Positions 1,662 to 21,407 of a stretch of DNA of 37,823 bases are shown one piece after another. The stretch covers positions 1-37,823 of the IMG/VR virus record IMGVR_UViG_3300032236_001215. One strand, 5' to 3'. The stretch comes from a virus. Numbering within the stretch: position 1 is the first letter of the stretch; the number at the start of each line of letters is the position of its first letter. The notes beneath the pieces are model-generated. The model saw only the letters and a program-made list of their open reading frames with translations, did no database searches and was not told where the DNA came from. The translations under genes were made by a program, and so were the position numbers.

Positions 1662-2533
1662 AAATTTGGCTTGTAGGCAGCGGGTATTGGGGCAGCAAGA
1701 TTGCAGCTAAATTAGAAAAGTTACAAATAGATTGCGCTATCATTGATATTAAAAATGGGCAAACGATTAGTGATATTGATACCGATGATCCAGTAATGTT
1801 AGCAACACCGCTATGGGATCACTATGAGCAAGCACTAGAACTTATTCATCGTGGTAATGATGTTTATATTGAAAAACCTGCTGCTGAAAACTATGATGAA
1901 ATAGCCAATTTAGTTAAAGCAACCAAAGATAATATTGTTATGGTTGGTCACATTTATATGTATAATCCAATCTTACATAAATTAAAATCTATTGTGGACG
2001 AAGGACGACTAGGTAACATACAATTTGTTAGTAGTGTCCGCACCAATCTTGGAATTTATCAAACTAAAACAACGCCGCTATTAAGTTTAGCACCACATGA
2101 TTTTACAATTGTAGATTATCTGTTAGGCGACTTACATGTTAGACGAGCACATGGTTTTAAATATAATAGTAGTAGTCCAAAGCATGATCGTGTAATGGTA
2201 AGCGGAACCAATTGGCAAATTGATGTAGGTTGGGCGCATCCTGAACGTAAACGTGAAGTTACTGTTATTGGTGATATAGCGCAAGCCGTATGGAATGATG
2301 ATACCAAAACATTAATCATTCATAAAAATACCGTTAATGATGGCAAGTTAATTGTTGATGAAGTTAAAGAAACTTGGCATTGGAAATCTGACGTAGACCC
2401 ATTACAAAATGAACTTGAACATTTTATTAAGTGCGTAACAGAACGTAAAAAACCAGATACCGATTTAACTTATGCAAGAAGAATTGCAGATTATCTGGAT
2501 ATCGCACAATTTTTAGTTGATGTTTCCGTATAA
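1658..2533 (+). CDS. Gfo/Idh/MocA-family NAD(P)-dependent oxidoreductase
   Basis: Read from the ATG at 1658, which forms an ATGA overlap with the previous stop, the protein is 291 residues. Upstream in-frame starts exist inside the aminotransferase gene but are less likely. Seen: VGSGYWGSK (residues 6-14), a Rossmann nucleotide-binding loop; YIEKPAA with the Glu-Lys-Pro motif (72-74) that carries the catalytic lysine; and GHIYMYNP (97-104), typical of the second domain. It is somewhat shorter than the 330-350 residues usual for the family, mainly in the C-terminal sheet. Members oxidise or reduce sugar nucleotides; WlbA-type enzymes work beside DegT aminotransferases in 3-amino sugar synthesis, a suggestive but unproven parallel. 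Its last 21 bases overlap the end of a gene on the other strand. Confidence 0.88.
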   Translation: MKIWLVGSGYWGSKIAAKLEKLQIDCAIIDIKNGQTISDIDTDDPVMLATPLWDHYEQALELIHRGNDVYIEKPAAENYDEIANLVKATKDNIVMVGHIYMYNPILHKLKSIVDEGRLGNIQFVSSVRTNLGIYQTKTTPLLSLAPHDFTIVDYLLGDLHVRRAHGFKYNSSSPKHDRVMVSGTNWQIDVGWAHPERKREVTVIGDIAQAVWNDDTKTLIIHKNTVNDGKLIVDEVKETWHWKSDVDPLQNELEHFIKCVTERKKPDTDLTYARRIADYLDIAQFLVDVSV

Positions 2534-4066
2534 TTCATTGAAGTAATTACGCAACCATTCCCAACGAAATGTATTGCGTCTTGTTTCATTATTGTCTTTA
2601 TTATTTTTATAAAATTCTGCGCCATCATTAGCACCACGTGTTGACCATTCAGCATATTTGCCTTGGGATTTTGTGCACCATACATGCAATCTATATTGTG
2701 TTTCTATACATGTTTTTGTATCATTAAATTCACTTAACTTGTGTGCTTCACGAAATGCTGTACGCCAAGTATGATATGGTGATGCATCAAAAGAACCATA
2801 GCAAGAAACAATGGGCACTACTTCATGGTCGAAACTCAATGTATAATCAGTACCAAACTCACCAAATGGCGGCGCATTTAATACCATATTGCGGTTGTAT
2901 AATATGATACCCATGTGCCCATAACGTAATCCGTTGACTGTATTCTCACTATAAAAGATATAATGTTTAGGTTTCTGCCAATAGTCAGCACCAATGTCAA
3001 AATTAAAATCTGGATGAATTTCAGTCTTGGCAAATACAGCATAAAAGTATGGCGTATCAGAAGCAGTTGCCGCCGCCTTAAGTGCGTTCTCCATACCACT
3101 GACGCCGTGAACTCGTTTGGCGTGAGGAAACTTGTTTATTAATTTATTCCAGTTTGCATCTGCTTCTGGTTCATCATAGCTTATAAAAATAATATCATTT
3201 AGATTATTGAAACCATATTCAGTATAATTCATTAAATGTGGATATTCATATAGTTCATCTTTTACGATACAATCTCTTGGAACAAGAACAGTGCTATTGT
3301 TTTTATTAAGACTTACGACTGGACGTTTTTCCCATAAACAAATATCTGGATAATCTATAAATCCAGTGGTTGAATAAACTGTGTATATTGAATTATTTCT
3401 TGGTGTTATTTTTAATTCTTGCGCTAAACTATCATGGGTAATCTTAATATTTGGCCAACGTTTACGTTTTACAGGTTCATGATTAAAATTATAGTTGCGC
3501 TCACCACGTTTATAAGCATCCACATTAATTAAAAATGTATCACCTTTTTCACATGTGCCACTTGGCCAACAATGAACATAGTTCATTTCATGGTTATTTG
3601 GTAGCCAATTAAAATTAAATTCCTCATATTCACAACAATCTGCAATAATCCATAACCATGGTTTTGTAGATTTTTTAACTGCACTATCGATTGCCGATTG
3701 CATAGTTGTTATTAGATGAACTTGGAAATCAACTGAATGTGGATTATCAAAACTACTCGTATTCAACAAACATGTATCATAATACTTTGTATCAATTGTG
3801 GGTATCATGTTATCATGGTGTACAGTTCCGTTATCATTATCCGTTGGTATCAACCATGTAGTATAATGCTGTGGATTATTGTGGCTAGGCCAAGCATGCT
3901 TGTATTGCAATTGATGGCGATTAGGCATCCAACGAAAATTAAATTTTGTATAATCTAATTGACGATGTGCAAGCCATACATATTCTGTTTTGCTAGACTG
4001 TTTGGCTTTTGTGATTAAACTCTCAATATCGCCATCATTATAATCATACCAAACTATATCAAACAT
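2513..4066 (-). CDS. Protein with three degenerate GT-A-like modules
   Basis: A 517-aa protein that I do not recognise by name. Internal comparison shows a repeated module. Segments near residues 27-60, 136-170 and 338-360 share an aromatic-rich strand followed by an acidic position and FNF(R/N)W(M/L)P or FNFD. The first two continue into matching (Y/H)xWPS stretches. The last module (about 292-480) is clearly paralogous to the protein at 11665-12603: both carry SY(D/H)EPxADANW, KRVxG, AAxAASxT, NGLxYG and WRxxFRE or WQAGFRE-like segments. That paralogue has a DAD motif where this one has VFAKTE, so the metal/nucleotide-binding DxD of GT-A glycosyltransferases appears lost in all three modules. 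It may be a glycan-binding or scaffold protein rather than an active transferase. It is last in its operon and starts within the end of the 372-aa gene. Confidence 0.7.
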   Translation of the reverse strand: MFDIVWYDYNDGDIESLITKAKQSSKTEYVWLAHRQLDYTKFNFRWMPNRHQLQYKHAWPSHNNPQHYTTWLIPTDNDNGTVHHDNMIPTIDTKYYDTCLLNTSSFDNPHSVDFQVHLITTMQSAIDSAVKKSTKPWLWIIADCCEYEEFNFNWLPNNHEMNYVHCWPSGTCEKGDTFLINVDAYKRGERNYNFNHEPVKRKRWPNIKITHDSLAQELKITPRNNSIYTVYSTTGFIDYPDICLWEKRPVVSLNKNNSTVLVPRDCIVKDELYEYPHLMNYTEYGFNNLNDIIFISYDEPEADANWNKLINKFPHAKRVHGVSGMENALKAAATASDTPYFYAVFAKTEIHPDFNFDIGADYWQKPKHYIFYSENTVNGLRYGHMGIILYNRNMVLNAPPFGEFGTDYTLSFDHEVVPIVSCYGSFDASPYHTWRTAFREAHKLSEFNDTKTCIETQYRLHVWCTKSQGKYAEWSTRGANDGAEFYKNNKDNNETRRNTFRWEWLRNYFNELYGNIN

Positions 4067-5177
4067 GACTATTGTAACCAGGCATCAAATAATTAATTTG
4101 GCGCTGTTCATGGTCTTCATCTGTCCAACTATAATCATATATTGCATGTTCACCATCAACTTCAAGACTATAGATATCTAGATAGTTACTCATGATATTC
4201 CAAATTTCGGCAACATCTGTTGTTCCAAAACTCATTTCAAAATCAATCTTACCAATCTCAAGATATCCAAGACTTAGATTGATGTCTGTTAAATCATAAC
4301 CCTCTCGCTGTAACCATGCGTTAAACTCATCAACTTCTTTGGTGTGCCATTCATGTTTGCCATAGCAAACATCACGACCCCATTCAATATCAAACTCACC
4401 ACTATAATATTGTAAATGTGTAATAGCATCGCATGTTGCTTGGTCTAATTGAGGCGCACCTTCATCACGAAATACTTCCATAAGAGTTTTACCGATCTGT
4501 GTCCAATGCATGTATACATGCCCAAATTTTCTATCATAGCCATTTGTTAAAAAACCACTACGATGCTCATCTGTCAGATTATATCGCTTGGCATTTAGGA
4601 ATGTCGTTATTTGTGATGGACGAACCCAATCGGGAGCATATCGTTCTTTACGAAGACTCAAGCACAGTGATTCAATTTCATGACAAAGATTGTTAATTTG
4701 CCGTATACTATATTTTACTTCTGGTGTTGCTAATTTATAATATGAACTTAAATTTTCAACAGTTCCTTGCAAATGTTCAAAATAATTATGAACAACATTC
4801 ATAACATCATGATTTGGACCACCACCCTGTTTTCCTATTTCATTGATGCCAGTAAAAGGCAACATTACATCATCTGGGGTATATCTAGTTCTAATAGAAT
4901 ACGAATTAAGACCTGCTGATTGCCAAACTCCAGTATCATTAAAATCGTTAATACGGGTAGTGTGTTTAACAAGTTGTTCTGAAAGATATTGTAGATTACG
5001 TTGCGTTTTTGGCCAACCGTGCCAACAATAATTTTTTTCGAGTTCACTATTTTTTTGTAATTCATTCTTAAGTGCCACTTCCCAGTCTTTGGCAAGCTGT
5101 GTATCATTGGGTTCAATGAATACAGGAAATACATCCGTTTTATCTAAAGGATTACGAAGGGTCATTACAACAGTCAT
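4059..5177 (-). CDS. Unknown protein in the radical-SAM operon, histidine-rich motifs
   Basis: A 372-aa protein with no family I can name. It sits between the last radical-SAM gene (ATGA overlap at 5174-5177) and the 517-aa GT-like gene (8-base overlap), so it is very likely co-translated with both. Seen: GGGPNHDVMNVVHNYFEHLQG (H-x6-H-x4-H spacing), then a helix with HEIESLCLSLRKE, then a later FGHVYMHW and a Glu/Asp-rich C-terminal half (DIEWGRDV, DEFNAWL, SWTDEDHEQ). The clustered His and acidic residues would suit a metal site, but this is a guess from composition. No signal peptide or membrane segment is visible. The first ATG at 5177 is preferred because of the coupling overlap; a second ATG lies at 5165. 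Confidence 0.72.
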   Translation of the reverse strand: MTVVMTLRNPLDKTDVFPVFIEPNDTQLAKDWEVALKNELQKNSELEKNYCWHGWPKTQRNLQYLSEQLVKHTTRINDFNDTGVWQSAGLNSYSIRTRYTPDDVMLPFTGINEIGKQGGGPNHDVMNVVHNYFEHLQGTVENLSSYYKLATPEVKYSIRQINNLCHEIESLCLSLRKERYAPDWVRPSQITTFLNAKRYNLTDEHRSGFLTNGYDRKFGHVYMHWTQIGKTLMEVFRDEGAPQLDQATCDAITHLQYYSGEFDIEWGRDVCYGKHEWHTKEVDEFNAWLQREGYDLTDINLSLGYLEIGKIDFEMSFGTTDVAEIWNIMSNYLDIYSLEVDGEHAIYDYSWTDEDHEQRQINYLMPGYNSHV

Positions 5178-6466
5178 ATATTATTCCACCAATCTAAGAC
5201 ATCGCCAGTTAGGATGTCATTTATTTTTATTTTAGCATCTTTGCGAATAGATTCCAATTTTAAAAGATGTGCCTTGCCTATAATTGCTTCTTGTTTATAG
5301 GTATCAGGAAACTGTTCTTCAAATGTTGGACGAGTTTTAAGATGTTCTAGTACATCCCATAAACTTTGTGTGCGACGAGTGATGAGCGGCTTAATACGAC
5401 TCTGTATACCCTCTAGAAGTGGTTCTAGGACTGTTCTAGGCAGTGCTAGGGGGCTGAGAAGTATGTCAGGAGAGAAAGCAAATACAACTTTGCTTAGTAG
5501 TTCTACATTTAGTTCATCAGCAAGATTGATGATATTTTCCAAATCAAATAGCCCAACGGTAGTAAGAGTAAAGTCGATACGCATCTGGCGAGGATGTCGT
5601 GACTGTTCAACGCCGTATCTAAAATTTTGTAAAAACATATCATAATCAAGACCAGTTCTAATATACTCACCGATTTCTCCTGTTCCATCTAAACTTGCAC
5701 ATATTTCCCAATGCGGAAAGTGCTGTAATAAATCCCAAAGTGTTCCATCTTTATCTTTTATATAACTTAAATTAGTATTATAACGCACACGAACTTGATC
5801 TGCGTAACCTAACTCAACGATGCGGCGCATGAATGTCCAGTGTTCATCATATAATAACGGTTCACCACCTACCCAATATATTTCACGTACACTTTTGTTT
5901 TCAATGGCTTGTTTGAACTCTGGTATAACCACATCACGAGTAAAGTCACGAATAGCATGGCGGTTCTTTGGTTGCATCCAATGATTCTTTGGGTTGGTTA
6001 AATCAACCATATTGTTTTTACGAACTTCAACTTCCCATGCCGAACTCAACATATCGCCGCACATGCGGCATTTGAAGTTGCATACATTACTATAACGATA
6101 ATCCCAAGAGATTGGTTCTAGGGTTGTATAACCTTCATCGTCAGTAGAAGATATAATATCCCCCCGTAAGTGACCAAAGAGATGAGCAAAGTAATCCCGA
6201 TAAACAGAAGTATTAAGTAACTTTTTATCGCATACTTCACATTCTTTAGGGACTGCTCCAGATAACCATTCTTTTCTAATTCTTCTAATATGTTCGCCAT
6301 TCCACCATTCTTTCAATGTTAGCGGATTAAATTGTCCATCGCCGCCAGCCGTGTCAATATACTGTTTAAAATTTTGCGCAGACTCACGAGAAGCACAGCA
6401 TAAGCGGCGCTCGCCTTGTGGCGAAATATACGTGTGCGTCCATGGTGCTAAACAAAAATCATTCAT
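5174..6466 (-). CDS. Radical SAM protein with N-terminal twitch-type cysteines (array member 5)
   Basis: The radical-SAM signature CNFKCRMC (Cys129, 133, 136, counted from the ATG at 6466) binds the [4Fe-4S] cluster that cleaves S-adenosylmethionine, and GGEP (200-203) contacts SAM. Ahead of this core is a second cysteine set: FCLAPW (Cys5), CC (23-24) and CEVC (76, 79). That pattern resembles half of a SPASM domain (twitch), placed at the N-terminus instead of the C-terminus. NCBI names a family of this layout as twitch-domain radical SAM proteins. A TTG at 6472 is an alternative start, but ATG 6466 gives the 8-base overlap seen elsewhere here and starts just before FCLAPW as in the next gene. 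Length is 430 aa. It has a longer C-terminal tail after its FPDTY than its sisters have after the matching site. Substrate unknown. Confidence 0.9.
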   Translation of the reverse strand: MNDFCLAPWTHTYISPQGERRLCCASRESAQNFKQYIDTAGGDGQFNPLTLKEWWNGEHIRRIRKEWLSGAVPKECEVCDKKLLNTSVYRDYFAHLFGHLRGDIISSTDDEGYTTLEPISWDYRYSNVCNFKCRMCGDMLSSAWEVEVRKNNMVDLTNPKNHWMQPKNRHAIRDFTRDVVIPEFKQAIENKSVREIYWVGGEPLLYDEHWTFMRRIVELGYADQVRVRYNTNLSYIKDKDGTLWDLLQHFPHWEICASLDGTGEIGEYIRTGLDYDMFLQNFRYGVEQSRHPRQMRIDFTLTTVGLFDLENIINLADELNVELLSKVVFAFSPDILLSPLALPRTVLEPLLEGIQSRIKPLITRRTQSLWDVLEHLKTRPTFEEQFPDTYKQEAIIGKAHLLKLESIRKDAKIKINDILTGDVLDWWNNI

Positions 6467-7658
6467 AGCCAATTGCCGCCGCTAACTCTGGATGATAATC
6501 TTTTAGATGTTGGTTGCGAAATCTATCACTATCTCGCAAAACTTGTTTAAGATAAGAGCAATCTGTTCCATCTCCGCTGTTCATAAACTGAATCAAATTT
6601 TTTATTTCATCATAAAAAATAGGCGGAATATCTGCCATTGATAGCTTATCGGTAATTAATTTTTTAGCAACACTATTTAAATTCTTAACACAAAAATGCG
6701 GAGGATCATGAACTACATTTAGATAATGATAGTTAAACATTTGATGCGGAACCCAGCGCAATATCTCATCTACATAATAAAAGTTAAGAGCATTTACTGT
6801 TAAACATAACTGCAGCACAATGTTTTTATTTTCATCTCGCAACTGCCTAAATTTAGTTAGATTGGCATTTACCACATTCCAATTTGCACCATATCGTTGA
6901 TACTCAAACCGTGGTCCCATATCATCAATGCTCAGTGCAATTTCAACTATTTTAAAATGTTTCCATATTTCGGTAGCATGTTGAGGAAATTGAGTGCCAT
7001 TTGTATTATAATGAATTTCTATATTGTTGGCATATCCACCATCAACTGCTGCTTGTAGAAAATCAAAATGTTCTGAAATAAGAAATGGTTCACCGCCCGT
7101 AAATTCAAGATAACGAATATGTGGCAATATGTTATTTAAATCTTCCCAAAATGCATCTACTTTACGGGGCCATTGTCCCTGTTTTAAAAAATCATTGGCT
7201 GGTCTATGATATTTACTTTGATAACTTTTATTAATTTCTATTTCTTCTTGTGCCCATTTTGAACTGCTAAAACTGCCACATATACGACATTTAAGATTAC
7301 AAATATTTCCCAGTTTCAAGTCAAGAAATATTAAATCACCATTATCTGGATTACTAAAATCAATATGCTGAACTAAATTATTAAGACGATGCCAACTATT
7401 TTGTCGCTTACTAGTGCGGCCGCTTGCTTCCTCACTCCAACAACGATTGCATACTTCTGGTTTTTCACCTTTTATAAAAGATTTTCTAAGATTTAATATA
7501 TAGTCGCCACTAAAAACATCGGTTAAAGTGGTATTTTCTATAAGCAAATCATTTCCATATTCATCTTTAATATTGTCATTTGCCAAACAACATACACGCA
7601 TTTGACCAAGTGGTGTTGTTTCCAAACTTATCCATGGAAGTATGCATAAATTATTCAT
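6459..7658 (-). CDS. Radical SAM protein with N-terminal twitch-type cysteines (array member 4)
   Basis: A 399-aa paralogue of its neighbours. Seen: MNNLCILPW with Cys5, then CC (23-24), then CNRC (70, 73), which together form the N-terminal twitch-like set; then the radical-SAM triad CNLKCRIC (120, 124, 127) and GGEP (188-191). The [4Fe-4S]/SAM core would produce a 5'-deoxyadenosyl radical, while the extra cysteines probably hold a second cluster for electron transfer or substrate contact. It ends with a short YHPEL-type motif found in similar form at the ends of the other members. No Shine-Dalgarno site is visible before ATG 7658; translation is probably coupled to the upstream gene through an 8-base overlap. 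Substrate cannot be read from the sequence. Confidence 0.9.
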   Translation of the reverse strand: MNNLCILPWISLETTPLGQMRVCCLANDNIKDEYGNDLLIENTTLTDVFSGDYILNLRKSFIKGEKPEVCNRCWSEEASGRTSKRQNSWHRLNNLVQHIDFSNPDNGDLIFLDLKLGNICNLKCRICGSFSSSKWAQEEIEINKSYQSKYHRPANDFLKQGQWPRKVDAFWEDLNNILPHIRYLEFTGGEPFLISEHFDFLQAAVDGGYANNIEIHYNTNGTQFPQHATEIWKHFKIVEIALSIDDMGPRFEYQRYGANWNVVNANLTKFRQLRDENKNIVLQLCLTVNALNFYYVDEILRWVPHQMFNYHYLNVVHDPPHFCVKNLNSVAKKLITDKLSMADIPPIFYDEIKNLIQFMNSGDGTDCSYLKQVLRDSDRFRNQHLKDYHPELAAAIGYE

Positions 7659-8922
7659 AGATATATCTCATTTCAGGTATGTATTCTAAAATGTTTTCGC
7701 TACGTATTTTATCTAGTTGAATAGTTTTTTCTACAAACTTGGGTATTAGATTGCTCTTATCATCTGCCATCATAAAGTTGATAGCACTTTCAAATCCAGT
7801 TGTTGCTCGTTTAAGGTGATCTTGGGGTTTAAGCCAATCAATATGTTCCAAATACATTTCTTGTATATCTACTTTGTATTGGAATGGTAATATGTCAATA
7901 CGATAGTGGGGTGGGTCTTGCAATATATTAATATTTAAATCTTGCGGTTTTAAAAACCCACGTTCTACCCAATCACGATGAAAAATTGGCAAGTGTAGTG
8001 CATTCATAATACTCAATGTAGGACTAATATAAAAATCTACCCGTGGACATATTTTTAACATTTCTTCACGATTGCGTTCAACATCCGCCCATACGGTATT
8101 CTTACGAATATACTCAGCGTGTTTACCCATCGCATCTAAACTTGCACCAACACTTACACTTTTAAATTCACGCCATAGTTCAAATACATTAGTTTTTTTA
8201 TAAACTGTTTGTGTAAAGTTAGTATTATATATAAGTCGAACATCGTGACGACCACGCTTGATGAGTTCTTTAAGCAAGCGATAATGTTCTTCCATGATAA
8301 GTGGTTCGCCACCAGCAAAATAAACTTGTTCGAGGTTATCAATTTGTGGTTCAAGCTGATTCCAAATATCATCTTCGCTGCGACCAGCAAAGTTAATACG
8401 TGTATTGTTTTTTGCCCAATCTTCACCAGCAAGTTTAACTTGATCATCATACCAATTACTACTAAAAATATGGCCACAACTGCGACAACGAAGATTACAT
8501 AAATTACTGAAACGTATATCCCAATAAATCATTTTCATTGGCGGCGTAGGATTATCAGTAAGTGCAATATGGTGCCCAAAATGTTTATTAGCACTCATGC
8601 GCATACTAAAGAAACCGTTATCTTCTTGTTCGTAGCATCGTGTGCAACCCTTTACAGCCTCACCTTTAAGCATTTTTGCACGAACATCTTGCATCTTTGA
8701 ACTATGCCAAATTTCTTCTAATGTATTATGGTGAGTATTGCCTACAAGTTCAGGCATTTCAGTATTGCAACAAGGATATGCTTCTCCTGTTGGAAAAGCA
8801 TGAAGGTGAATCCATGGATACATGCAAAATGATTTGTTCTCAAATATCAAATGTTTTTGAAAATCTGTTAGTTTTTCAATAGCAATGTTGATTGGTTCTT
8901 TACCGTTATAATTATATGCCAT
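7651..8922 (-). CDS. Radical SAM protein with N-terminal twitch-type cysteines (array member 3)
   Basis: A 423-aa paralogue with about 30 extra residues before the first cysteine. Seen: SFCMYPW (Cys33), CC (51-52), CTRC (93, 96), the SAM triad CNLRCRSC (142, 146, 149) and GGEP (204-207). The TLEEIW segment between the CC and CxxC pairs is the usual helix of SPASM/twitch domains, which strengthens the assignment. It ends IPEMRYIYE, similar to the PEL/PEM ends of its sisters. ATG 8922 overlaps the upstream stop by 11 bases and lacks an evident ribosome binding site. With the two genes downstream it forms one subgroup, defined by a double cysteine at the second position. Confidence 0.91.
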   Translation of the reverse strand: MAYNYNGKEPINIAIEKLTDFQKHLIFENKSFCMYPWIHLHAFPTGEAYPCCNTEMPELVGNTHHNTLEEIWHSSKMQDVRAKMLKGEAVKGCTRCYEQEDNGFFSMRMSANKHFGHHIALTDNPTPPMKMIYWDIRFSNLCNLRCRSCGHIFSSNWYDDQVKLAGEDWAKNNTRINFAGRSEDDIWNQLEPQIDNLEQVYFAGGEPLIMEEHYRLLKELIKRGRHDVRLIYNTNFTQTVYKKTNVFELWREFKSVSVGASLDAMGKHAEYIRKNTVWADVERNREEMLKICPRVDFYISPTLSIMNALHLPIFHRDWVERGFLKPQDLNINILQDPPHYRIDILPFQYKVDIQEMYLEHIDWLKPQDHLKRATTGFESAINFMMADDKSNLIPKFVEKTIQLDKIRSENILEYIPEMRYIYE

Positions 8923-10270
8923 TATACCAATATTCTAATTCAGGGAATGTTTCTATAAAATCTTTACCACGACGAGAATCATATTGTTCATAGAAATTTT
9001 TAAAATCTTTTTCTAAAACATCATTATGACTTGCACCATCGTGTGGAATAGTTGCCGTGCGTAGGTATTGTATTAATCTTTTGACATGTTCAATTTCCAT
9101 TTGGTGCAAATAACTTCCATGCTCGTGACGTTCTAAAAATTTTTCTAGTGCAACTGCACATTCTTCTTTAATACCATATGGCATTACAACTGGACTTTGG
9201 AAACTTGGAAAACGTAAAATGTTTAGTGTAATAGTTAAACTATCACGACCATAACCCATTTTAAAATCCATCATGTGTTCAAGAAATCTTGGCAGAGATA
9301 ACAAACACAATCCATTGATAGTTGCCATAACGTGTAATTGTTTGACCGCACCACTTTTTTGAAGGTAAACTAAATTATCAAACCATTGATAATAATTTAA
9401 ACCATCACGAATATATTCAGCCTGATCCTTAAATGCCTCACAACTTGTATAAACTTCTACATGCGGCAAGTCACGAATCTTATCTACAAACTCTACAAGT
9501 TTTTCTTGTTCAAGACCAAGGTTGCTGTTAATAGCAAGTTTAGTTTGGCTCTTACCACGATTGTTTTTAAACCAATCAAGCAGCTTCCAGGTGTGTCCAC
9601 TCATGAGAGGTTCACCGCCAGTTATGCGTAATTCACGCAGTGTCTTGTATAGGTCGGTTTCCCACCACTTAAAGAATGCTTCTACATATGGATTTGTATC
9701 AGTAAACCCATATAGCTGAGAAGAATCATGTAAATGGGTAAAATGATTGCGACCATCACTAACCAAATTATTGTATGGTCCATTATTTTTAATGTCTTTA
9801 ACCCAAGTAGTACTAAAAGCGGGATTACAATAGCTACAAGCAAAGTTACAAGTGCGATCAAATGCTATCTCCAATGTGCGAAGGTTTACGTCAGTTCCAC
9901 TCGGTAATTGAAATGCTGTGTTTAATTCTTCTTCACTATATATCATACTTTTGTAAGGACGATCACTGATAGCCGTTGAACTACTATCTTCAATACGCCA
10001 GCAATATTCACAACCACTTGGACGCTTACCTTGCTGCATTAGACGACGATGTTCTTTCTTCTCAGGAGTATTGTGAAGAGAAGCAGGATTAGCCAATACT
10101 TGTTCTACACTTACTTGATGTGGCAGTGGGTGGTGGCAACTTGTTGTTTGTCCACTACCCAACCAGATAGTAGCATTATACCATTTGGCACCACAAAAAG
10201 ATGCACTCTTAGTATCAAGCACACGTTGTTTATATTCTAAAAAAGATTCTTCTGGTTGCTTACTTCGCAT
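8912..10270 (-). CDS. Radical SAM protein, variant twitch-type N-terminus (array member 2)
   Basis: A 452-aa paralogue from a second subgroup shared with the gene just upstream. Seen: SFCGAKW (Cys26), SCHHPLP (Cys45, followed by two histidines where the other subgroup has a second cysteine), CEYCW (87, 90), radical-SAM triad CNFACSYC (141, 145, 148) and GGEP (218-221). A conserved SLHNTPEKKEHRRLM stretch precedes the CxxC. The C-terminus reads TFPELEYWYNGI, closely matching the upstream gene. Start ATG 10270 overlaps the previous stop by 11 bases. It is probably an iron-sulfur enzyme with two clusters; the Cys-to-His change could alter ligation of the second one. Substrate unknown. Confidence 0.9.
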   Translation of the reverse strand: MRSKQPEESFLEYKQRVLDTKSASFCGAKWYNATIWLGSGQTTSCHHPLPHQVSVEQVLANPASLHNTPEKKEHRRLMQQGKRPSGCEYCWRIEDSSSTAISDRPYKSMIYSEEELNTAFQLPSGTDVNLRTLEIAFDRTCNFACSYCNPAFSTTWVKDIKNNGPYNNLVSDGRNHFTHLHDSSQLYGFTDTNPYVEAFFKWWETDLYKTLRELRITGGEPLMSGHTWKLLDWFKNNRGKSQTKLAINSNLGLEQEKLVEFVDKIRDLPHVEVYTSCEAFKDQAEYIRDGLNYYQWFDNLVYLQKSGAVKQLHVMATINGLCLLSLPRFLEHMMDFKMGYGRDSLTITLNILRFPSFQSPVVMPYGIKEECAVALEKFLERHEHGSYLHQMEIEHVKRLIQYLRTATIPHDGASHNDVLEKDFKNFYEQYDSRRGKDFIETFPELEYWYNGI

Positions 10271-11699
10271 TATCTGCCCAATACTTACAGTTATTATACC
10301 ACTCTACCATTTCTGGAAAGGTTTGTAAAAAATTAGTTTTACGACGACGATCATGTTCATCAAAGAAACGATAAAAATCTGCCTGAGTTTTATTATCTTC
10401 ACGGCGATGTTCATGCATCCAATCTACAACACGTTGTAGTTTGGTTACTTCATAATCTTTAAACCCGTTAAATCTTGTATCAACTGTTTCTAACTGTGGT
10501 TGCATCCAATGAACAATATTCTGCAAGAACCAAGTATAACTTTCTGGTAGTATATCAATACACTGCCATGCTGGTTCACGCAATATCGGTGTATCAAACC
10601 AAATACGTTGATATGTTGTATTGTATTTGGAACGAAGTTCAAGAATCCATTGCATCAATTCTTGAAAACTTGTAATGTTTAACACGTTCATCGTAATGAT
10701 AAAAGTTATGCTGTTACGACCTGATATTTCTTCTAAGAACCGCTCAACATTGGACTGCATTAGTTTAAAGTCAAGACCATGGCGAGCATATTCAGCACGT
10801 TCTCCGTATCCGTCGATAGAAACGAACTGCATGAAATGCTCTAGCACATGGTTACCACACATGTGTTTAACATAAGTTAGATACTTGTCAAACACATATT
10901 CATCTTGGCTAAAGTTACTAGTCACATTAAGATGTAAATCTTTCTTTGGATTCTCCAACACATAATCAAATACACGATAGGTATTGCGGTCCATAAGCGG
11001 CTCGCCACCTGTCATGCGAAAATGTTTTAAGTTGGGGTAGAGTTCGGGCCACCATCGCCAGAACGCATCAACATAAGGATTATCTTCCCGATTCGGTATA
11101 GGTTTACGATCACCCCGAAAATAAGCAGGACTATTATGATTATTAGAGGTAGGATAAGCACCCAGATCATTTATTTCCTTCATCCATGAACTACTAAACT
11201 GTGGACTGCAGTATGAACAACTTAAATTACATGCACTATTAAAGTTTACTTCAACATAACTTGGATTAACATTCCATGTTAAGGGGTCTTGAACCAGAAT
11301 TGTATCAAACTTCTCAGCAGCCCAAGGTTCTCCGCTTCTGTAATGTCGGTCGGATAAGTTTCCCGTGGCTTCAACACGCCAGCAATATGAACATTCTTCT
11401 GGCTTCTCTCCACCAAGCATTCTTGCTCTCTGGGTCTTTTTATGTACGGTGTTATGGAGCGCACTGGGGTTATCTTGTAACTCATTGGCATCAATCCTAT
11501 GTAGTGGTGGATGATAACAACTGTTAGTATGACCAGTTGTTAAATGTAAACTTGTTTGCTGCCACTTTGCAAGGCAAAGAGCAGGTCCAAGTTTCTGTTG
11601 CATCTTTTCAGCAGCAGATAAAAAATCACTCTTTAACGTTTTATCTTCGTTAACTGTGGCACTATCACCAGAGTTGTCTAGCAGCACTTCGGATGACAT
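10260..11699 (-). CDS. Radical SAM protein, variant twitch-type N-terminus (array member 1)
   Basis: First of five consecutive radical-SAM genes in the direction of transcription. Counted from ATG 11699 (479 aa): LCLAKW (Cys42), SCYHPPLH (Cys61 plus His), CSYCW (103, 106), SAM triad CNLSCSYC (157, 161, 164) and GGEP (231-234). It is nearest to the next gene: both have the Cys-x-His-Pro pattern, ALHNT or SLHNT before the CxxC, a NPYVDAFWRWW or NPYVEAFFKWW segment, and an end of TFPEMVEWYN type. Other in-frame starts are ATG 11708 and TTG 11732; 11699 is preferred because AAAGAG lies about 9 bases before it. It overlaps the upstream gene by 35 bases. Confidence 0.88.
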   Translation of the reverse strand: MSSEVLLDNSGDSATVNEDKTLKSDFLSAAEKMQQKLGPALCLAKWQQTSLHLTTGHTNSCYHPPLHRIDANELQDNPSALHNTVHKKTQRARMLGGEKPEECSYCWRVEATGNLSDRHYRSGEPWAAEKFDTILVQDPLTWNVNPSYVEVNFNSACNLSCSYCSPQFSSSWMKEINDLGAYPTSNNHNSPAYFRGDRKPIPNREDNPYVDAFWRWWPELYPNLKHFRMTGGEPLMDRNTYRVFDYVLENPKKDLHLNVTSNFSQDEYVFDKYLTYVKHMCGNHVLEHFMQFVSIDGYGERAEYARHGLDFKLMQSNVERFLEEISGRNSITFIITMNVLNITSFQELMQWILELRSKYNTTYQRIWFDTPILREPAWQCIDILPESYTWFLQNIVHWMQPQLETVDTRFNGFKDYEVTKLQRVVDWMHEHRREDNKTQADFYRFFDEHDRRRKTNFLQTFPEMVEWYNNCKYWADNAK

Positions 11700-12603
11700 T
11701 TCCCACATCTCTTTCTGGTAACATAATATCAATATTCTGGTATGCTCGCTGATGTTTCTTATACCAAGAACTTTGTTCAGGAGACATGCTTATAATATCA
11801 AGATTTAAACGTTTACGCAATATATTTGCATACTGTTCGCTTCTTTGCAAACCATCATCTATTGTATATTGCCACAAGTTATCAAGTTTTTTAAAATCAC
11901 GAACTTCACGATAATCCCATTCATCAACAAACATGGTCATATGCGCACCTTGACGAGCACCCATTATTGCCCATTTACCAAACTCTACGTCCGCACCAAC
12001 AGTGCACCAAATAACAAGGTTAGCACGATTGCCGTGCCAAGTAGCTGTTTCAAATTCTTCTGGTGTAGGACGACGACCACGATCTAAACATAATTTTACA
12101 CCTTCACGAAATCCTGCTTGCCATGCTTGTTGTGGACTGCCATTTGGATCGGTTGTGCTCCACACATCATGCATTGCCCAATACTTGTCATCAAAACAAA
12201 ACTCAACAGCAGTGTGATTGCTGCCATCTGTTGCTTCATGAGTTCGCATATTATTGACAAATGTTTTTGTCCAACTACTAATACCGCCGTTACCATAGCA
12301 AAGACCATTGATAATATTCTTTGCTCTCCAACGAAATACGCAATCATCATTAAGATGATTTATACGCAATTGTTGATTAAAGAACTCTGGGTTTGGTAGA
12401 TTGTCAGCATCAATAAGAATAAATCGTTCTGTTTCACTAGCAGCCGCCGCTGCTTTATGTGCGGCATCACTGCCTTCTATACCATCAACACGCTTTGCCC
12501 ATGGTGCAAATGAACGCACATACGACCAATTTGCATCAGCATTTGGTTCGTGGTAACTTAAAAAGATACAATCTAATTCACTAATATCAACTAATTCAGA
12601 CAC
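11665..12603 (-). CDS. Glycosyltransferase-like protein with DAD motif (GT-A type)
   Basis: About 312 aa. The N-terminal half reads strand, SYHEPNADANW, KRVDGIEG, an alanine-rich helix, then RFILIDADNLPNP. The hydrophobic strand ending in Asp-Ala-Asp (about residues 65-67 from the chosen start) is the expected DxD metal/nucleotide-sugar site of GT-A glycosyltransferases. Later segments (INGLCYGNGG, WQAGFREG) are shared with the last module of the 517-aa protein at 2513-4066, which has lost the DxD. I chose the GTG at 12603 because AAGGA lies 7 bases upstream (12611-12615) and the overlap with the previous stop becomes 8 bases; an ATG at 12621 has no such site. Activity and acceptor are unknown. 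Confidence 0.78.
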   Translation of the reverse strand: MSELVDISELDCIFLSYHEPNADANWSYVRSFAPWAKRVDGIEGSDAAHKAAAAASETERFILIDADNLPNPEFFNQQLRINHLNDDCVFRWRAKNIINGLCYGNGGISSWTKTFVNNMRTHEATDGSNHTAVEFCFDDKYWAMHDVWSTTDPNGSPQQAWQAGFREGVKLCLDRGRRPTPEEFETATWHGNRANLVIWCTVGADVEFGKWAIMGARQGAHMTMFVDEWDYREVRDFKKLDNLWQYTIDDGLQRSEQYANILRKRLNLDIISMSPEQSSWYKKHQRAYQNIDIMLPERDVGNVIRSAARQLW

Positions 12604-12835
12604 TTTTCCATCCTTGTGCATTGGGATAACCAGCGTTTACTGGAAACTGATAATCATCATGCAACGTATAATAACTTGTTCCACCACGTTTCAATACAAT
12701 TTGTGTTGGAAACTTTGGTGATGCAAAAATAGGTTTAGGTGGTGGGTTAGGATCATTTGGTTGCACCATCTTGGCAAGTTCACGCTCAAACTCAGCCCAC
12801 CATTCAACTTCTTCTGGCGTTAAATTCATACTCAT
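12596..12835 (-). CDS. Small hypothetical protein, 79 aa
   Basis: A short acidic-then-proline-rich protein: NLTPEEVEWWAEFERELAKM, then a PNDPNPPPKPIFASPKFPT stretch, then a C-terminal half with LKRGGTSYYTLHDDYQFP. I recognise no family. The frame is open further upstream to 12910, but those starts lie deep in the neighbouring gene. The ATG at 12835 (or the ATG two codons later at 12829) gives a more ordinary overlap, with a weak GGATAG upstream. It lies between two GT-A-like genes, and its stop overlaps the start of the DAD-motif glycosyltransferase. No cysteine and no obvious leader/core layout are visible, so I do not call it a peptide precursor for the radical-SAM enzymes. Confidence 0.6.
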   Translation of the reverse strand: MSMNLTPEEVEWWAEFERELAKMVQPNDPNPPPKPIFASPKFPTQIVLKRGGTSYYTLHDDYQFPVNAGYPNAQGWKSV

Positions 12836-13646
12836 ATCTATCCAATAACTCATCATTACAAAAGGTTTTGTCAACATAATGTAGCGGTCTTGATTGTTTA
12901 TAATGCCCAATCGTTGGAATAAAATCAGGTTGAATATCCCAATGTAATTGTTCTTGCCAAGGTTGTTTGCTTGGACAATGCTGCAATTCAGATTTCATAT
13001 GCACAAAACCAAATCCAGTATCACGTGGTTTTATATCTAATATTTTTAACGCAAGAGCATATACTTCATCAGTGCGTGGTTCATCATACCGACAATTGAC
13101 AAGATAATTGTCACGATAATAATCCCAGTCGTCTATGATAAAACGCATAGTGTCGTATACTTCTTTACATGCCATATCATAGGTAAAGTAAGTCCAAGCA
13201 CTGTATATGTTTGGCATTAGATTTTCATCAAATTGCTGACGATATTTGCGATTATCAATTACATGACCATCATAGGTATAAACACTTTGTGTAAAACTAT
13301 ATGTAAATTGTGAATAGGTATTCCATAACCAACTTAAATCTGTTGTGAATAACATATCACATTCTGTTTTAATCGTGCTTTTATATGGACTATAAGCAAA
13401 TACTTGACATTCATTCTGCATCTTGATCTTGCTATTTTGAGCAAGGTCATGCTTTAACACGATAATATCATTAAAGACAGCACGATGTGCATCTGTTACT
13501 TGTTCATGCGTTTCTTTATCTACTATAACGGCAAAATTATTATCTAGACTCTGTGTAAGTTTGCAACTTAAGGCTTGTAGATATGCCATCCGTAAATAAT
13601 CTACATCACCGTTATTCTGTGCGATACAAAGATAACCACTGCTCAT
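12804..13646 (-). CDS. Glycosyltransferase-like protein, GT8-like fold suspected
   Basis: A 280-aa protein. Seen: MSSGYLCIAQNNGDVDYLRMAYLQALS at the N-terminus, which looks like the first strand and helix of a nucleotide-diphospho-sugar transferase; AVIVDK, a second strand; and STIKTECDMLFTTDLSWLW (about residues 90-108), where Glu-Cys-Asp-Met sits where GT-A enzymes have DxD. Near the C-terminus GFGFVHMKSE matches the position of the metal-binding histidine of GT8-type enzymes. The next gene upstream has the same layout with a better DGD motif, so the two are probably distant paralogues. Start ATG 13646 shares one base with the previous stop (TAATG). The ExD variant leaves catalysis uncertain. 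Confidence 0.65.
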   Translation of the reverse strand: MSSGYLCIAQNNGDVDYLRMAYLQALSCKLTQSLDNNFAVIVDKETHEQVTDAHRAVFNDIIVLKHDLAQNSKIKMQNECQVFAYSPYKSTIKTECDMLFTTDLSWLWNTYSQFTYSFTQSVYTYDGHVIDNRKYRQQFDENLMPNIYSAWTYFTYDMACKEVYDTMRFIIDDWDYYRDNYLVNCRYDEPRTDEVYALALKILDIKPRDTGFGFVHMKSELQHCPSKQPWQEQLHWDIQPDFIPTIGHYKQSRPLHYVDKTFCNDELLDRYEYEFNARRS

Positions 13647-14416
13647 TAAAATTGATCCTTGTTCATTAGGTGTAGGTCAACACCACTTATACTATTTGCA
13701 TACACTTTATCAGTTATATAACGATAAACAAGTTTATCATCTTCAAATCGTTCATAGTCTATTTGTGCATCACAGTTGATAAGTGGGTAATTTTTAAAAC
13801 CATAATCTCGCATACCATATCCACCCATAAGATGTAGCGCAACAGAAAATATAAAATCATTACGAATTGGAGCACGACGATAGCCATATATTTCACTATA
13901 ATATAGATAATGTTCTTGAACGTGTTTAGCCATTTCAAATATACGATGTGATTCGTCGCATTTATTAAAAATACAAACGGTTGCCCAATACATATCAATC
14001 TGCGTATTACCAAGTTTAAATGTTTCTGTCTTTCGATTTACGGGACTATAAACTTGCTTATTCATTATAAAATCTTTGCTACAATGTAGATGCGGCAGAA
14101 GATTAGGTGTGCATAAAAAATAATCACCATCAATGATTAACGTTCTATCATATGGGCTTAAATCATAAAGTCTTGTTCTAACAAGATTGCGCCAAGTATA
14201 ATCTTTTTCATTTTGTGTACGCCAATTACCACCAGGTTTTTCAACAAGAATGCGTCTGTGTTGCCCAATATCACCATCTATTCTATCGGTTACAATAGTA
14301 ACAGGAATGTTTAGGTGTTTAGCAACACGGTTAGCCGCTATTATTGCCATATCAAAGTAGATATAGTTCTCATTATCAAAAGCAGCAATAAGGCAACCTT
14401 TAGAGTTGTTTGGCAT
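13646..14416 (-). CDS. Glycosyltransferase-like protein with DGD motif (GT8-like)
   Basis: About 256 aa from ATG 14416, which has GAAGAT a few bases upstream and a 17-base overlap with the previous gene. Seen: GCLIAAFDNENYIYFDMAIIAA, a first strand and helix; IPVTIVTD, a second strand; YDRTLIIDGDYFL (about residues 89-101), a strong match to the hydrophobic-strand-plus-DxD core of GT-A transferases; and LHLMNK near the C-terminus, in the place of the GT8 metal-binding His. These enzymes transfer a sugar from UDP- or similar donors to a glycan or protein. Donor and acceptor cannot be told. The ORF extends upstream to 14452, but without an ATG of comparable quality. Confidence 0.72.
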   Translation of the reverse strand: MPNNSKGCLIAAFDNENYIYFDMAIIAANRVAKHLNIPVTIVTDRIDGDIGQHRRILVEKPGGNWRTQNEKDYTWRNLVRTRLYDLSPYDRTLIIDGDYFLCTPNLLPHLHCSKDFIMNKQVYSPVNRKTETFKLGNTQIDMYWATVCIFNKCDESHRIFEMAKHVQEHYLYYSEIYGYRRAPIRNDFIFSVALHLMGGYGMRDYGFKNYPLINCDAQIDYERFEDDKLVYRYITDKVYANSISGVDLHLMNKDQF

Positions 14417-14741
14417 TACGAATCTTCGTAAACTCTTCGTATTCTGCGGCAAACTCGTTCATGACTTCCCACCAACGGCGCTGACAAATATATAACAGTT
14501 CATGCGGAACAACCTTGACGGGGACATCATATGCATCCATCATAAAAATTACACCATCCCAATCTTTCCAATTTGGTCCAAACCATGAATGTAAGAAAGC
14601 AATAAGTTCTTGGGTTACAATAAACATACCGCCATTATAATTCACGGTCATTCGTGATTCAATGGCAGTATTGATGTTTTGTTTTGCCAGTTCACGGTCA
14701 TACGCTACTCTGGCTGCATCACGCAATTCTTCTGTGTTCAT
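14400..14741 (-). CDS. Hypothetical protein, first gene of the radical-SAM/GT operon
   Basis: A 113-aa soluble protein, no named family. Seen: a helical N-terminus (EELRDAARVAYDRELAKQN), then NYNGGMFIVTQELIAFLHSWFG, then DWDGVIFMMDAYDVPVKV and a C-terminal helix rich in aromatic and acidic residues. The balanced, non-repetitive composition supports a real gene. It is the first gene downstream of a strong sigma70-type promoter whose predicted start point is the A of this ATG, so it may be read from a leaderless mRNA. No Shine-Dalgarno site is present. An internal ATG at 14651 also lacks one. Its stop overlaps the next start by 17 bases. Confidence 0.72.
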   Translation of the reverse strand: MNTEELRDAARVAYDRELAKQNINTAIESRMTVNYNGGMFIVTQELIAFLHSWFGPNWKDWDGVIFMMDAYDVPVKVVPHELLYICQRRWWEVMNEFAAEYEEFTKIRNAKQL

Positions 14742-14747
14742 GTGAGA

Positions 14748-14776: not shown

Positions 14777-14777
14777 A

Positions 14778-15668
14778 TTATGCTTGGTTGTTAACCGTAT
14801 TAGTAGTAGTTGGAGTTCCCCAAGTATTTGTAAGATAAGTTGTTTCTGGATAGGCAATGTTAATATAAGCAACAGATGTTCCAGTAACTTGATAACCAAA
14901 AGTATTAGGGTCAGCATCAGTTAGCACCAAGGAAATAGTAATAGTACCAGTACCATTATAACTAATATTCACATCGATACGATTATTATTATAGTTAGTG
15001 TTACCAGTACCAGTTTCAGTCATTGAAAGGTATGTTGCTGGTGTAGAGGTTAACTGATAAAATCCACTGGTGCTCAAATATGTTCCACGAGTATATGTAC
15101 CAACTGTTCCGTTGTGCAACGATGAACCAGCATAAATGTTAAAACTTGTAAATCCAGTATTAACAAAACTGTTCCAAGTAGTAGGTGACAACGTATTACC
15201 ATTTGAAACAAGTTGTATAGTTCCGCCAGCATTGAAGAAATAACGAGCATTATTATCACTTGCAAATGCAATTGTCCACGTCTTGGTTGATGCACTTATC
15301 CAAGATGATGCATTGCTAGTTGATGCATAGGCTGTAGTTGCGCTATATGCATAACCTGTAAAACGATTATTTTGTAAACTTGTAATTGCAGTATCAACTG
15401 CACTCAAATAAGTTATAATACTACCGCTTGTTGGCTGTGAAGGAATACCAGTAGTATTGTTAAATTGGTGTTGTTGCATACTACTCATACGAGCAATAAG
15501 GGTAGCCCAATCACTAGCAGGAACTACGACACCAGCACTATTGGTTGCAACCGTTGAAGATTGTCCATAACCATAACTACCAGACCCTGTTCCCCATAGC
15601 TGATTCACACTCGCTACACGAGTGTTAAAGTCTGTTACTTCGATTAAACCACCACTAGAATATGCCAT
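14778..15668 (-). CDS. Virion structural protein (tail or fibre-associated)
   Basis: A 296-aa protein. The N-terminus (MAYSSGGLIEVTDFNTRV, then VNQLWGTGSGSYGYGQS) is a type I know from virion proteins of T4-like marine phages; a helical linker (WATLIARMSSMQQHQ) follows. From about residue 110 it is a Ser/Thr/Asn/Tyr-rich beta protein with TITISLVLTDADPN near the end, like small tail or neck-fibre proteins. No enzyme motif is seen. It is the last gene of the structural block. A late-promoter core lies 20 bases before its start, overlapping the previous stop codon. The stop (TAA at 14778-14780) is immediately followed by the sigma70 promoter of region 2. Confidence 0.75.
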   Translation of the reverse strand: MAYSSGGLIEVTDFNTRVASVNQLWGTGSGSYGYGQSSTVATNSAGVVVPASDWATLIARMSSMQQHQFNNTTGIPSQPTSGSIITYLSAVDTAITSLQNNRFTGYAYSATTAYASTSNASSWISASTKTWTIAFASDNNARYFFNAGGTIQLVSNGNTLSPTTWNSFVNTGFTSFNIYAGSSLHNGTVGTYTRGTYLSTSGFYQLTSTPATYLSMTETGTGNTNYNNNRIDVNISYNGTGTITISLVLTDADPNTFGYQVTGTSVAYINIAYPETTYLTNTWGTPTTTNTVNNQA

Positions 15669-15688
15669 GTCTTAAAGTTCCCACATGG

Positions 15689-16084: not shown

Positions 16085-16093
16085 ATTTTATCC

Positions 16094-17287
16094 TTAAGGT
16101 GCGATATTTGCCATGCTATAAGCACCAAGATATGAACTACCGCCATCATAAGTGATGAATGATATAACATCACGATATGATACAGTTGGTGTTAGTACTG
16201 GTGCCTGACCATAACTCCAACGAACAGATGCTGGATATGTAAGATTATAGCTTCCACTACCACCTTGTGTTGCTACAATTGTAACAGTTTGTGCTTTACC
16301 ACTTGGTGGTGGGTTACTGAATGAAAGTGTGCAGTTTGCAGTTAATGTAATTGTATGAACATCACTTACACTCCAATCAACAGTATAAGTTGAACCTACG
16401 CTGCCAACAACATTAACGTTTTCTATAACACGACTAAACACGGCACTATTAGGTGTTAATGTTCCAATAGCACCATTGAACGTGCTGTTGACATTAGGTG
16501 CTGTAATTGTTCCACTACTGGTTAAACTTGTTAGTGTTCCTACACTTGTGATATTTGACTGTGTAGCATATGTAACAGTGTTTGCATTATAAAGAACGCT
16601 GCCAACAATCGGAGTTGCAACAGTCAATCCAGTTAAAGTTCCAAGACTTGTAATATAAGGTTGTGCGTTTTGGATAATTGTTCCACTGATTGTAATATTA
16701 CCAGCAAAAATAGTTGAGTTAACATTATAACCAGGTAGAATAGTTGCAAAACCAGTAATTGGACTTTGTGGCGTAAATGTGGCATCTTTACTTAAAATAC
16801 CAGTTAAAGTATTTCCAACATAGAAAGCTAAAACAGTATGTGTTGAACTTGTATTATCCGTAATTGTTAATGCCGTGGCAGTTGTTTGTTGCTGTGAACT
16901 TGTATAACTTGGACCAATAAGCAACCAACTACTACCATTATAAAGATAGAGTTGAGCATCATCACTCTTATACCACAAATCACCAGCAATACTACTACTT
17001 GTTGGTGCACTTGTGCTAACTGTAGCACCGCCAATGGTTTTAAAAGTTGTTCCATTATAAACTTGTAGGTTATTGCTAGTTGTGCTCCACCATAACTGAC
17101 CAGTTACGGGATTTACTGGCTGTGCAGGACCAGCAAAATTCTGCATAATATTAATTAAATCTTGTTCAATTATTTGACCATAATTTGGATAGTTTTTACC
17201 AACAAGAGTTAAACTTGTTGAACTATCGGTTGCACCATTTTGAATGGTAATTGGTGTGCGGTTGACTACGGTTAATGTATATGACAT
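16094..17287 (-). CDS. Tail fibre protein with shared N-terminal module
   Basis: A 397-aa protein. Residues 1-125 hold a module common to three fibre genes here: SLTLVGKNYPNYGQ, a helix ending in NF, then two LWW/LWY units (GQLWWSTTSNNLQVYNG and GDLWYKSDDAQLYLYNGSSW). The middle is Thr/Ser/Asn beta repeat of fibre-shaft type, including FNGAIGTLTPNSAVF. The last ~90 residues (DVHTITLTANCTLSF, PPSGKAQTVTI, YPASVRWSYGQAPVLT, ITYDGGSSYLGAY) match a widespread phage fibre C-terminal domain. It is likely a trimeric tail fibre acting in adsorption, with the N-terminal module docking it to the tail. A late-promoter core is located 21 bases upstream. Confidence 0.85.
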   Translation of the reverse strand: MSYTLTVVNRTPITIQNGATDSSTSLTLVGKNYPNYGQIIEQDLINIMQNFAGPAQPVNPVTGQLWWSTTSNNLQVYNGTTFKTIGGATVSTSAPTSSSIAGDLWYKSDDAQLYLYNGSSWLLIGPSYTSSQQQTTATALTITDNTSSTHTVLAFYVGNTLTGILSKDATFTPQSPITGFATILPGYNVNSTIFAGNITISGTIIQNAQPYITSLGTLTGLTVATPIVGSVLYNANTVTYATQSNITSVGTLTSLTSSGTITAPNVNSTFNGAIGTLTPNSAVFSRVIENVNVVGSVGSTYTVDWSVSDVHTITLTANCTLSFSNPPPSGKAQTVTIVATQGGSGSYNLTYPASVRWSYGQAPVLTPTVSYRDVISFITYDGGSSYLGAYSMANIAP

Positions 17288-17308
17288 ATTTTAAAACCTG
17301 TTTAACAT

Positions 17309-17315
17309 TATTTAT
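17309..17315 (-). promoter_or_regulatory. T4-type late promoter core
   Basis: ATAAATA (preceded by G) on the minus strand in the 39-base gap before ATG 17287, 21 bases upstream. It marks the start of a possible late transcript for the third fibre gene and the genes after it. Confidence 0.5.
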
Positions 17316-17326
17316 CGGTTTATGGA

Positions 17327-18064: not shown

Positions 18065-18257
18065 TACCCTTTTTATATATGATGGGTTGATTGGACTCTA
18101 CATATTTTTTGGCGTTTTCTACATCTTTTAAACCACGAAGAATGTGATCATCATGTAGGCTAAAATGCAAATTGGCAATCCATTCACGCAATTCTTTGGG
18201 TAATTTATCAAAGCATTGCATGACGATTGCCATTCTGCGTGTGTCCATCTCGGACAT
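18051..18257 (-). CDS. Small hypothetical protein, 68 aa
   Basis: A short helical protein: MQCFDKLPKELREWIANLHFSLH, then a charged helix (ILRGLKDVENAKKYVES) and a basic end. The LPKELREWIAN segment looks like a small motif seen in phage hypothetical proteins, but I cannot name the family. ATG 18257 shares one base with the upstream TAA (TAATG), and its stop lies inside the next gene's start region, so all three small genes here are translationally linked. No membrane segment. Confidence 0.65.
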   Translation of the reverse strand: MSEMDTRRMAIVMQCFDKLPKELREWIANLHFSLHDDHILRGLKDVENAKKYVESNQPIIYKKGNGQN

Positions 18258-18565: not shown

Positions 18566-18580
18566 AATTTGTATCCTCTA

Positions 18581-21381: not shown

Positions 21382-21397
21382 GCTGTTTACCCAATAT

Positions 21398-21404
21398 TAT
21401 TTAT
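21398..21404 (-). promoter_or_regulatory. T4-type late promoter core
   Basis: ATAAATA on the minus strand, three bases after the stop of the C1q-like fibre gene and 16 bases before ATG 21381. Its upstream flank (ACCA) is the same as that of another ATAAATA at 23006-23012. Confidence 0.55.
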
Positions 21405-21407
21405 TGG

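Follow-up and report, generated by a model that had tools for sequence, protein, structure and literature searches.

The window analyzed here, a virus record of 37.8 kb (IMG/VR record IMGVR_UViG_3300032236_001215; G+C 36.4%), carries on its minus strand five consecutive genes for radical S-adenosylmethionine (SAM; AdoMet) enzymes, which we call E, D, C, B, and A in order of transcription, and which form the center of a translationally coupled cassette comprising v, s, g2, g1, t2, E, D, C, B, A, x, and t1 (Table 1). Neighboring genes of the array overlap by 8 to 14 bases each, and the extent given in a first-pass annotation of this DNA, 5174 to 11699, holds for the five overlapping paralogues that it had described. 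The mechanical open reading frame (ORF) of E starts at TTG 11732, with ATG 11699 being the likelier start.

All five proteins score above the curated cut-off of 170 bits for NF033640 (NCBIfam N_Twi_rSAM, twitch domain-containing radical SAM protein), with nearly the full length of the model covered. PF04055 (Radical_SAM) is matched above its curated cut-off by A, B, and C and below it by D and E, while the N-terminal stretch matches PF13186 (SPASM) above the cut-off in A and C and below it in B. The cysteine layout is C-x17/18-C(C/H/Y) ... CxxC, followed by the core CX3CX2C and then by GGEP. This arrangement, an N-terminal cysteine set ahead of the core and GGEP, had been noticed in the single sequence, and it recurs across the 67 to 79 loci aligned for each group, where the twitch-type cysteines N-terminal to CX3CX2C are invariant and 96 to 159 columns of each alignment reach an identity of 97% or more. 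The ordered pattern C-X9-15-G-X4-C / CX2C / CX3CX2C / GGEP is present in every row of B (72/72), C (75/75), D (78/78), and E (78/78), but in only 19/67 rows of A, in which the glycine is often absent and the cysteines are invariant; the core together with GGEP appeared in 1 of 200,000 shuffles of the C sequence. The first four cysteines fit the published SPASM motif, CX9-15GX4C-gap-CX2C (PMC6231123), but they lie ahead of the core and not behind it, whereas in classical SPASM and twitch enzymes (BtrN, MoaA, SkfB, and PqqE) the auxiliary cysteines follow the core. The curated family NF033640 already has its twitch at the N terminus, so this position as such is not new. That model names a layout and not a function, and our literature search found no function for the family; what distinguishes A to E is that they constitute five fixed orthologous subgroups in one ordered cassette.

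Pairwise identity among A to E is ∼21 to 30%. In an unrooted tree of 170 rows, built by a quick method with Shimodaira-Hasegawa-like approximate likelihood ratio test (SH-aLRT) support, the phage rows of each of the five form one clade (support in Table 1), and the ratio of nonsynonymous to synonymous substitution rates (dN/dS), computed against three relatives (L006, L009, and L014), is 0.05 to 0.25. Recent duplicates with inactivated cores, or otherwise decayed genes, are ruled out by the tree, the conserved motifs, and dN/dS taken together. By these sequence criteria, A to E appear to be five diverged, active-looking, non-interchangeable enzymes, each conserved in a role of its own, as the first-pass annotation had suggested from their divergence.

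Used as queries against IMG/VR, C retrieved 80 loci and x a further 80, the latter from at least 560 relatives, and gene order was counted over 120 distinct loci. The order v-s-g2-g1-t2-E-D-C-B-A-x is nearly invariant, the neighborhood thus being conserved in a large group of related, uncultured aquatic phages: within the radical SAM part, adjacency holds for t2-E in 84/84, E-D in 102/104, D-C in 115/119, C-B in 113/120, B-A in 113/117, and A-x in 112/113 loci, x following directly after A; s adjoins g2 in 42/42, and the remaining head genes are as listed in Table 1. Among 60 complete loci, 44 contain exactly five radical SAM genes and 15 contain more, a near constancy that leaves copy number too little variation to track the glycosyltransferases (GTs). 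To test whether this linkage was an artifact of finding loci through radical SAM genes or x, v and t2 were searched independently. An array radical SAM gene was present in 55/56 of the v loci with enough downstream sequence, and E was present in 56/58 of the t2 loci, so that the expectation that v also occurs in phages without the array was practically not borne out. Rare exceptions were seen: two loci (L393 and L404) have v-s-g2-g1-t2 without the full quintet, and one (L292) has v without the array, cases that are informative about the dependence of these genes on one another.

Table 1. Cassette genes and surrounding features in the window (pLDDT, predicted local distance difference test)
Feature	Position	Strand	Basis
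E, N-twitch radical SAM enzyme 1	10260..11699	minus	NF033640 338 bits; own clade, SH-aLRT 100; model pLDDT 83
D, N-twitch radical SAM enzyme 2	8912..10270	minus	NF033640 306 bits; own clade, SH-aLRT 91
C, N-twitch radical SAM enzyme 3	7651..8922	minus	NF033640 402 bits; PF13186 at 33-97; own clade, SH-aLRT 99
B, N-twitch radical SAM enzyme 4	6459..7658	minus	NF033640 339 bits; own clade, SH-aLRT 99
A, N-twitch radical SAM enzyme 5	5174..6472	minus	NF033640 286 bits; PF13186 at 7-82; own clade, SH-aLRT 86
x, partner protein; a barrel and helices, the latter bearing conserved N127/H130/E134 and N162/H166/E169	4059..5177	minus	model pLDDT 90.7; alignment
t1, C-terminal half homologous to t2	2513..4066	minus	aligns with t2 over 211 aa at 32% identity
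t2, GT-A-like protein, DxDN motif	11665..12621	minus	weak GT2 matches
g1, GT8-like protein	12804..13646	minus	before t2 in 74/74 loci
g2, GT8-like protein of the g1 family	13646..14452	minus	before g1 in 59/59 loci
s, small protein right after v	14400..14741	minus	after v in 41/42 loci
v, fast-evolving fiber-like protein dedicated to the cassette	14778..15668	minus	55/56 v loci carry an array radical SAM gene
Tail-fiber block upstream of cassette	16094..22349	minus	genes 16094-17287, 19879-21381, 21408-22349
4897-aa virion structural protein, far side of fiber block	23039..37732	minus	phrog_10938, 1049 bits

The GT-A-like genes reported on both sides of the array are indeed constant partners, but their assignment as GTs is weak by sequence. 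Members of the t2 family, with a mean column identity of 58%, match GT2 models in 3/20 cases only (best E 0.0045); the sole match of g1 is glycogenin, below significance (E 0.17 to 0.36); and one g2 member matches GT2 at E 0.16. Profile searches of the PDB with x, t2, and g2 returned no significant match. We therefore treat g1, g2, t1, and t2 as putative GTs. The predicted structure of x gave top rows that were nearly all cyclophilins in the comparison with VIA (Z up to 8.6, ∼135 residues aligned) and no match below E 0.001 with Foldseek, and we keep this weak, model-based cyclophilin-like resemblance of its barrel as a hint only.

At the head of the cassette, the window v protein has no PHROG match, and s, whose PHROG matches are below significance, may be a fiber chaperone by its position and look. 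Upstream lies a block in which the genes at 16094 and 19879 match PHROG tail fiber families. The fiber-side setting, with these genes and the 4897-aa virion protein, is similar to that of the host recognition cluster in pelagimyophages (PMC7029224), and published descriptions of such islands suggest that the cassette sits in the tail-fiber island of a T4-like aquatic phage. Within the block, the three fiber genes of Table 1 have a common N-terminal domain, and 21408-22349 also shows a C1q-like match. Between them, 18581-19879 (minus strand) encodes 432 aa, largely glycine-rich runs like those of phage tail-tip polyglycine adhesins, with no family match, and 17327-18064 (minus strand) encodes a phrog_7084 protein with a sub-threshold DUF6065 match; a similar-looking family (fam 24) adjoins x in several other loci.

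The cassette most likely decorates a surface structure, and we favor a reading in which A to E tailor a sugar or glycoconjugate and v, by virtue of its dedication to the cassette, is the preferred candidate acceptor. The same dedication also serves an alternative, namely that A to E directly alter residues of v or of another virion protein, in the manner of SPASM peptide maturases, with the GTs adding sugar to the altered residues. The SPASM-like N-terminal domain fits this alternative, as does the cyclophilin-like resemblance of x, slight as it is, to a fold that binds peptides. Moreover, the nearest fold to the predicted model of E is SkfB, a maturase of ribosomally synthesized and post-translationally modified peptides (Z 13.6, 236 residues); however, the sugar-acting enzymes BlsE and DesII follow within ∼1 Z unit, so this ranking of a model does not discriminate, and function cannot be read from the fold. 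Further, v is among the fastest-evolving genes (dN/dS 0.19 to 0.39) and the enzymes are among the slowest; in the same locus pair, C is 94% identical and v only 46%. Because the radical SAM proteins are so much more conserved than v, an invariant small substrate fits better than sequence-specific modification of v. Direct protein modification is also disfavored by the absence of v from most bacterial E relatives, and no short precursor peptide was found beside the array: no short ORF of at least 80 aa other than s recurs among the core families, shorter peptides having been outside that search. We consider direct protein modification unlikely. The first-pass annotation had placed carbohydrate first and a virion or host protein second; carbohydrate is still the better guess, but modification of a virion protein comes closer to first than that ranking had it, because a dedicated fiber-like v stands at the cassette head.

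Parts of the cassette also occur in relatives of predatory bacteria. Among 291 Bdellovibrionota genomes, E-type genes are present in 74; D-type genes in 26 at a strict threshold, 12 of them well above the rest; and A-type genes in 12, six of which stand well above the rest and all six of which also have D and E. The partner x is found in 19 of these genomes, 18 of them E-positive, and t2 in 18, 16 of them E-positive, compared with 74/291 overall (hypergeometric probabilities of 5e-11 and 8e-9, respectively, not corrected for kinship). A single Bacteriovoracaceae chromosome (G001) has a close bacterial row of each of A to E, clustered between obg and lgt, and provides the nearest bacterial rows to all five phage clades in the tree. 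The v gene occurs in 1/291 genomes (G167), in a region of the chromosome next to the housekeeping genes pheST and trmD, where the series v, s, g2, g1, one gene, and t2 is continued by radical SAM genes in phage order. The contig bearing this stretch (G167:C21, L224 13389-17800) ends a few kb downstream, and a prophage remnant is possible. For E and D, the phage clades are surrounded by diverse bacterial rows, which makes a bacterial origin of the phage quintet plausible, although the unrooted tree does not demonstrate it. Elsewhere, a Bdellovibrionia chromosome (G002:C1, ∼745 to 775 kb, L182-L184) has an island of ∼12 N-twitch radical SAM genes, which also holds an amidinotransferase-like gene and additional genes of the radical SAM type. 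An E-type gene adjoins flagellin genes in one genome (G060:C2, L208 9000-13000), and in another locus (L214) a flagellin gene lies within ∼10 kb of t2-E. Both arrangements are possibly due to chance, and with flagellin beside E in one genome we rejected a flagellin link in Bdellovibrionota as too thin.

These chromosomal relatives, which are often near surface-polysaccharide genes and without v, bear on a second alternative, in which the chemistry is the same but the acceptor is a host envelope glycan (O-chain or capsule), remodeled to exclude competing phages. This is also how GT8 genes lying in that island in pelagimyophages have been interpreted in print (PMC7029224). Set against this are the occurrence of the array in all but one of the v loci, with v at the head of the gene order; the lack of any recognizable flippase or ligase in the cassette; and the fiber-operon position, which would point to action at virion assembly. 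We regard a host-glycan acceptor as no more probable than direct protein modification.

Among isolated phages, no match was obtained when 50,697 phage records were searched by tblastn with E, x, t2, v, and s, and C found only distant radical SAM proteins, mostly in Vibrio phages. The isolated Vibrio phage K566 (OZ196521) has four N-twitch radical SAM genes interleaved with two Pfam-grade GT8 genes and one GT4-like gene; this cluster (L240, OZ196521.1 152572-171750, at 8977-17764) lies near pagP. K566 shows the same coupling of N-twitch radical SAM and GT8 genes, reached independently: its radical SAM proteins form a separate clade, and the stretch examined contains no t2, x, g1, g2, s, or v. 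A different arrangement was described in 2010 for Campylobacter phages CP220 and CPt10, in which five radical SAM genes, an amidinotransferase, and two nucleotide-diphospho-sugar transferases form one block, read as an exchangeable module (PMC2853527). The enzymes of that block are core-first, and the module has no profile-level match to A to E, t2, x, g1, g2, s, or v. Radical SAM cassettes in the host recognition cluster of pelagimyophages were mentioned in passing in 2020 (PMC7029224); in the portion of that account available, we found no description of a fixed gene order, five orthologue groups, or bacterial relatives. Marine T4-like genomes contain many radical SAM genes, with 12 in one genome (PMC5332604).

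Several further genes join the cassette in some loci only. The converging sugar-nucleotide genes at 49-2533, which the first-pass annotation had taken as a link to a carbohydrate pathway, lose that weight, being present as an epimerase-like family in 32/81 loci, an aminotransferase family in 27/81, and an oxidoreductase family in 6/81. Also optional are a DegT aminotransferase and, by PDB homology, a carbamoyltransferase (TobZ/GdmN-type), an amidinotransferase, a 5'-methylthioadenosine/S-adenosylhomocysteine (MTA/SAH) nucleosidase, and MetK. An optional fam 4 (355 aa), a GT by eye, had no significant PDB match and was not used as evidence. Core-first radical SAM families are inserted as optional genes as well (fam 26 and fam 34; L018 5342-6406 and L080 2455-3303); fam 26 resembles CP220 enzymes, three of the CP220/CPt10 radical SAM proteins being related to it, and the CP220 amidinotransferase resembles the optional one of the cassette (E 7e-11). 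The amidinotransferase, the carbamoyltransferase, and DegT are typical of pathways to diffusible small molecules of aminocyclitol- or guanidino-sugar-like type, and the CP220 module is of the same flavor. The cassette might accordingly make such a molecule, rather than a polymer, during infection, to act on competitors or on host metabolism; yet these three genes are optional, whereas the fiber-like v and s are constant, and the cassette sits in a fiber island, which makes this account improbable.

MetK and the nucleosidase are found in 13 to 14 of 60 loci, with 5.71 radical SAM copies in loci with the nucleosidase and 5.15 in those without it (one-sided p 0.02), and the pair suggests heavy AdoMet use. 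Complex phage DNA modifications in other systems use GTs and radical chemistry, which lends something to the idea of DNA-base hypermodification. A boost to host metabolism, through auxiliary genes for pyrroloquinoline quinone (PQQ) or the SAM cycle, is how the combination of radical SAM, MetK, and MTA/SAH nucleosidase genes in the T4-like Lake Baikal phage population VP_139 has been interpreted (PMC7678222). Here, A to E all fall in NF033640 and match neither PqqE nor other cofactor models, on which basis PQQ or SAM-cycle auxiliary genes were rejected; MetK and the nucleosidase are optional helpers; and the linkage is to fiber genes and not to DNA metabolism. Both versions together are very improbable.

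In the mechanism that we favor, AdoMet would be cleaved at each CX3CX2C cluster to give a 5'-deoxyadenosyl radical, which would take a hydrogen from a substrate carbon, this core chemistry being expected from radical SAM family membership. The N-terminal cluster may (i) accept an electron, as the auxiliary cluster of BtrN-like enzymes is thought to do (PMC9012708), or (ii) position the substrate. Each of A to E would perform one distinct step or act at one position, as their strict one-of-each conservation suggests, and the set would form a line working on one sugar or glycoconjugate. Such a substrate is suggested by the constant GT-like partners, the optional carbamoyl- and amidinotransferases, the glycan genes near bacterial copies, and the radical SAM-GT8 cluster of K566. 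The putative GTs g1, g2, t1, and t2 would build or attach the sugar, and x would be a partner of the radical SAM line; the optional carbamoyl- and amidinotransferases would make the end product differ between phages, while MetK and the nucleosidase would provide AdoMet and probably clear away the 5'-deoxyadenosine left after use. With v as acceptor, the outcome would be a chemically altered phage fiber.

Several observations weigh against this mechanism. The fold closest to that modeled for E belongs to a peptide maturase, even if BlsE and DesII are nearly tied with it; the GT assignments of g1, g2, t1, and t2 are all below significance by sequence; and the sugar-nucleotide genes are optional in phages. 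The Bacteriovoracaceae chromosome with the quintet has no detectable t2, x, or v in its genome, from which it follows that the enzymes are not strictly dependent on these partners. Finally, the support drawn from the neighbors of bacterial A, D, and E genes, which include GT2 in 9/148 cases and sugar epimerases in 3, comes from a tally without a matched control set. On balance, the full mechanism, a five-enzyme tailoring line with v as acceptor, is a tentative proposal that we hold to be possible but somewhat short of probable, whereas tailoring of some glycan or glycoconjugate, whether on v or on the host surface, is reasonably probable.

Radical SAM genes in bulk are already known from phages; apparently new are the fixed N-twitch quintet, its dedicated fiber-like protein, and its bacterial relatives, of which we found no description in the open literature, subscription papers being outside the search. 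It is doubtful, but conceivable, that the cassette represents a biosynthetic kind not described before, a five-enzyme radical SAM line common to aquatic phages and Bdellovibrionota that would place a chemically new decoration on v and so provide a chemical coat that varies and could serve in receptor binding or in evasion. Radical SAM enzymes carry a high cost and are sensitive to oxygen; that five of them form a fixed set alongside a dedicated fiber-like protein, in a cassette whose x occurs in at least 560 IMG/VR stretches, implies a product worth that cost. For the N-twitch family, this adds five groups of orthologues with constant partners and relatives in bacteria, as well as Vibrio phage K566 as a model that can be cultivated, and the old question of the function of phage-borne radical SAM genes becomes directly testable. 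Should virions indeed carry the product, this would add a new class to the known virion modifications.

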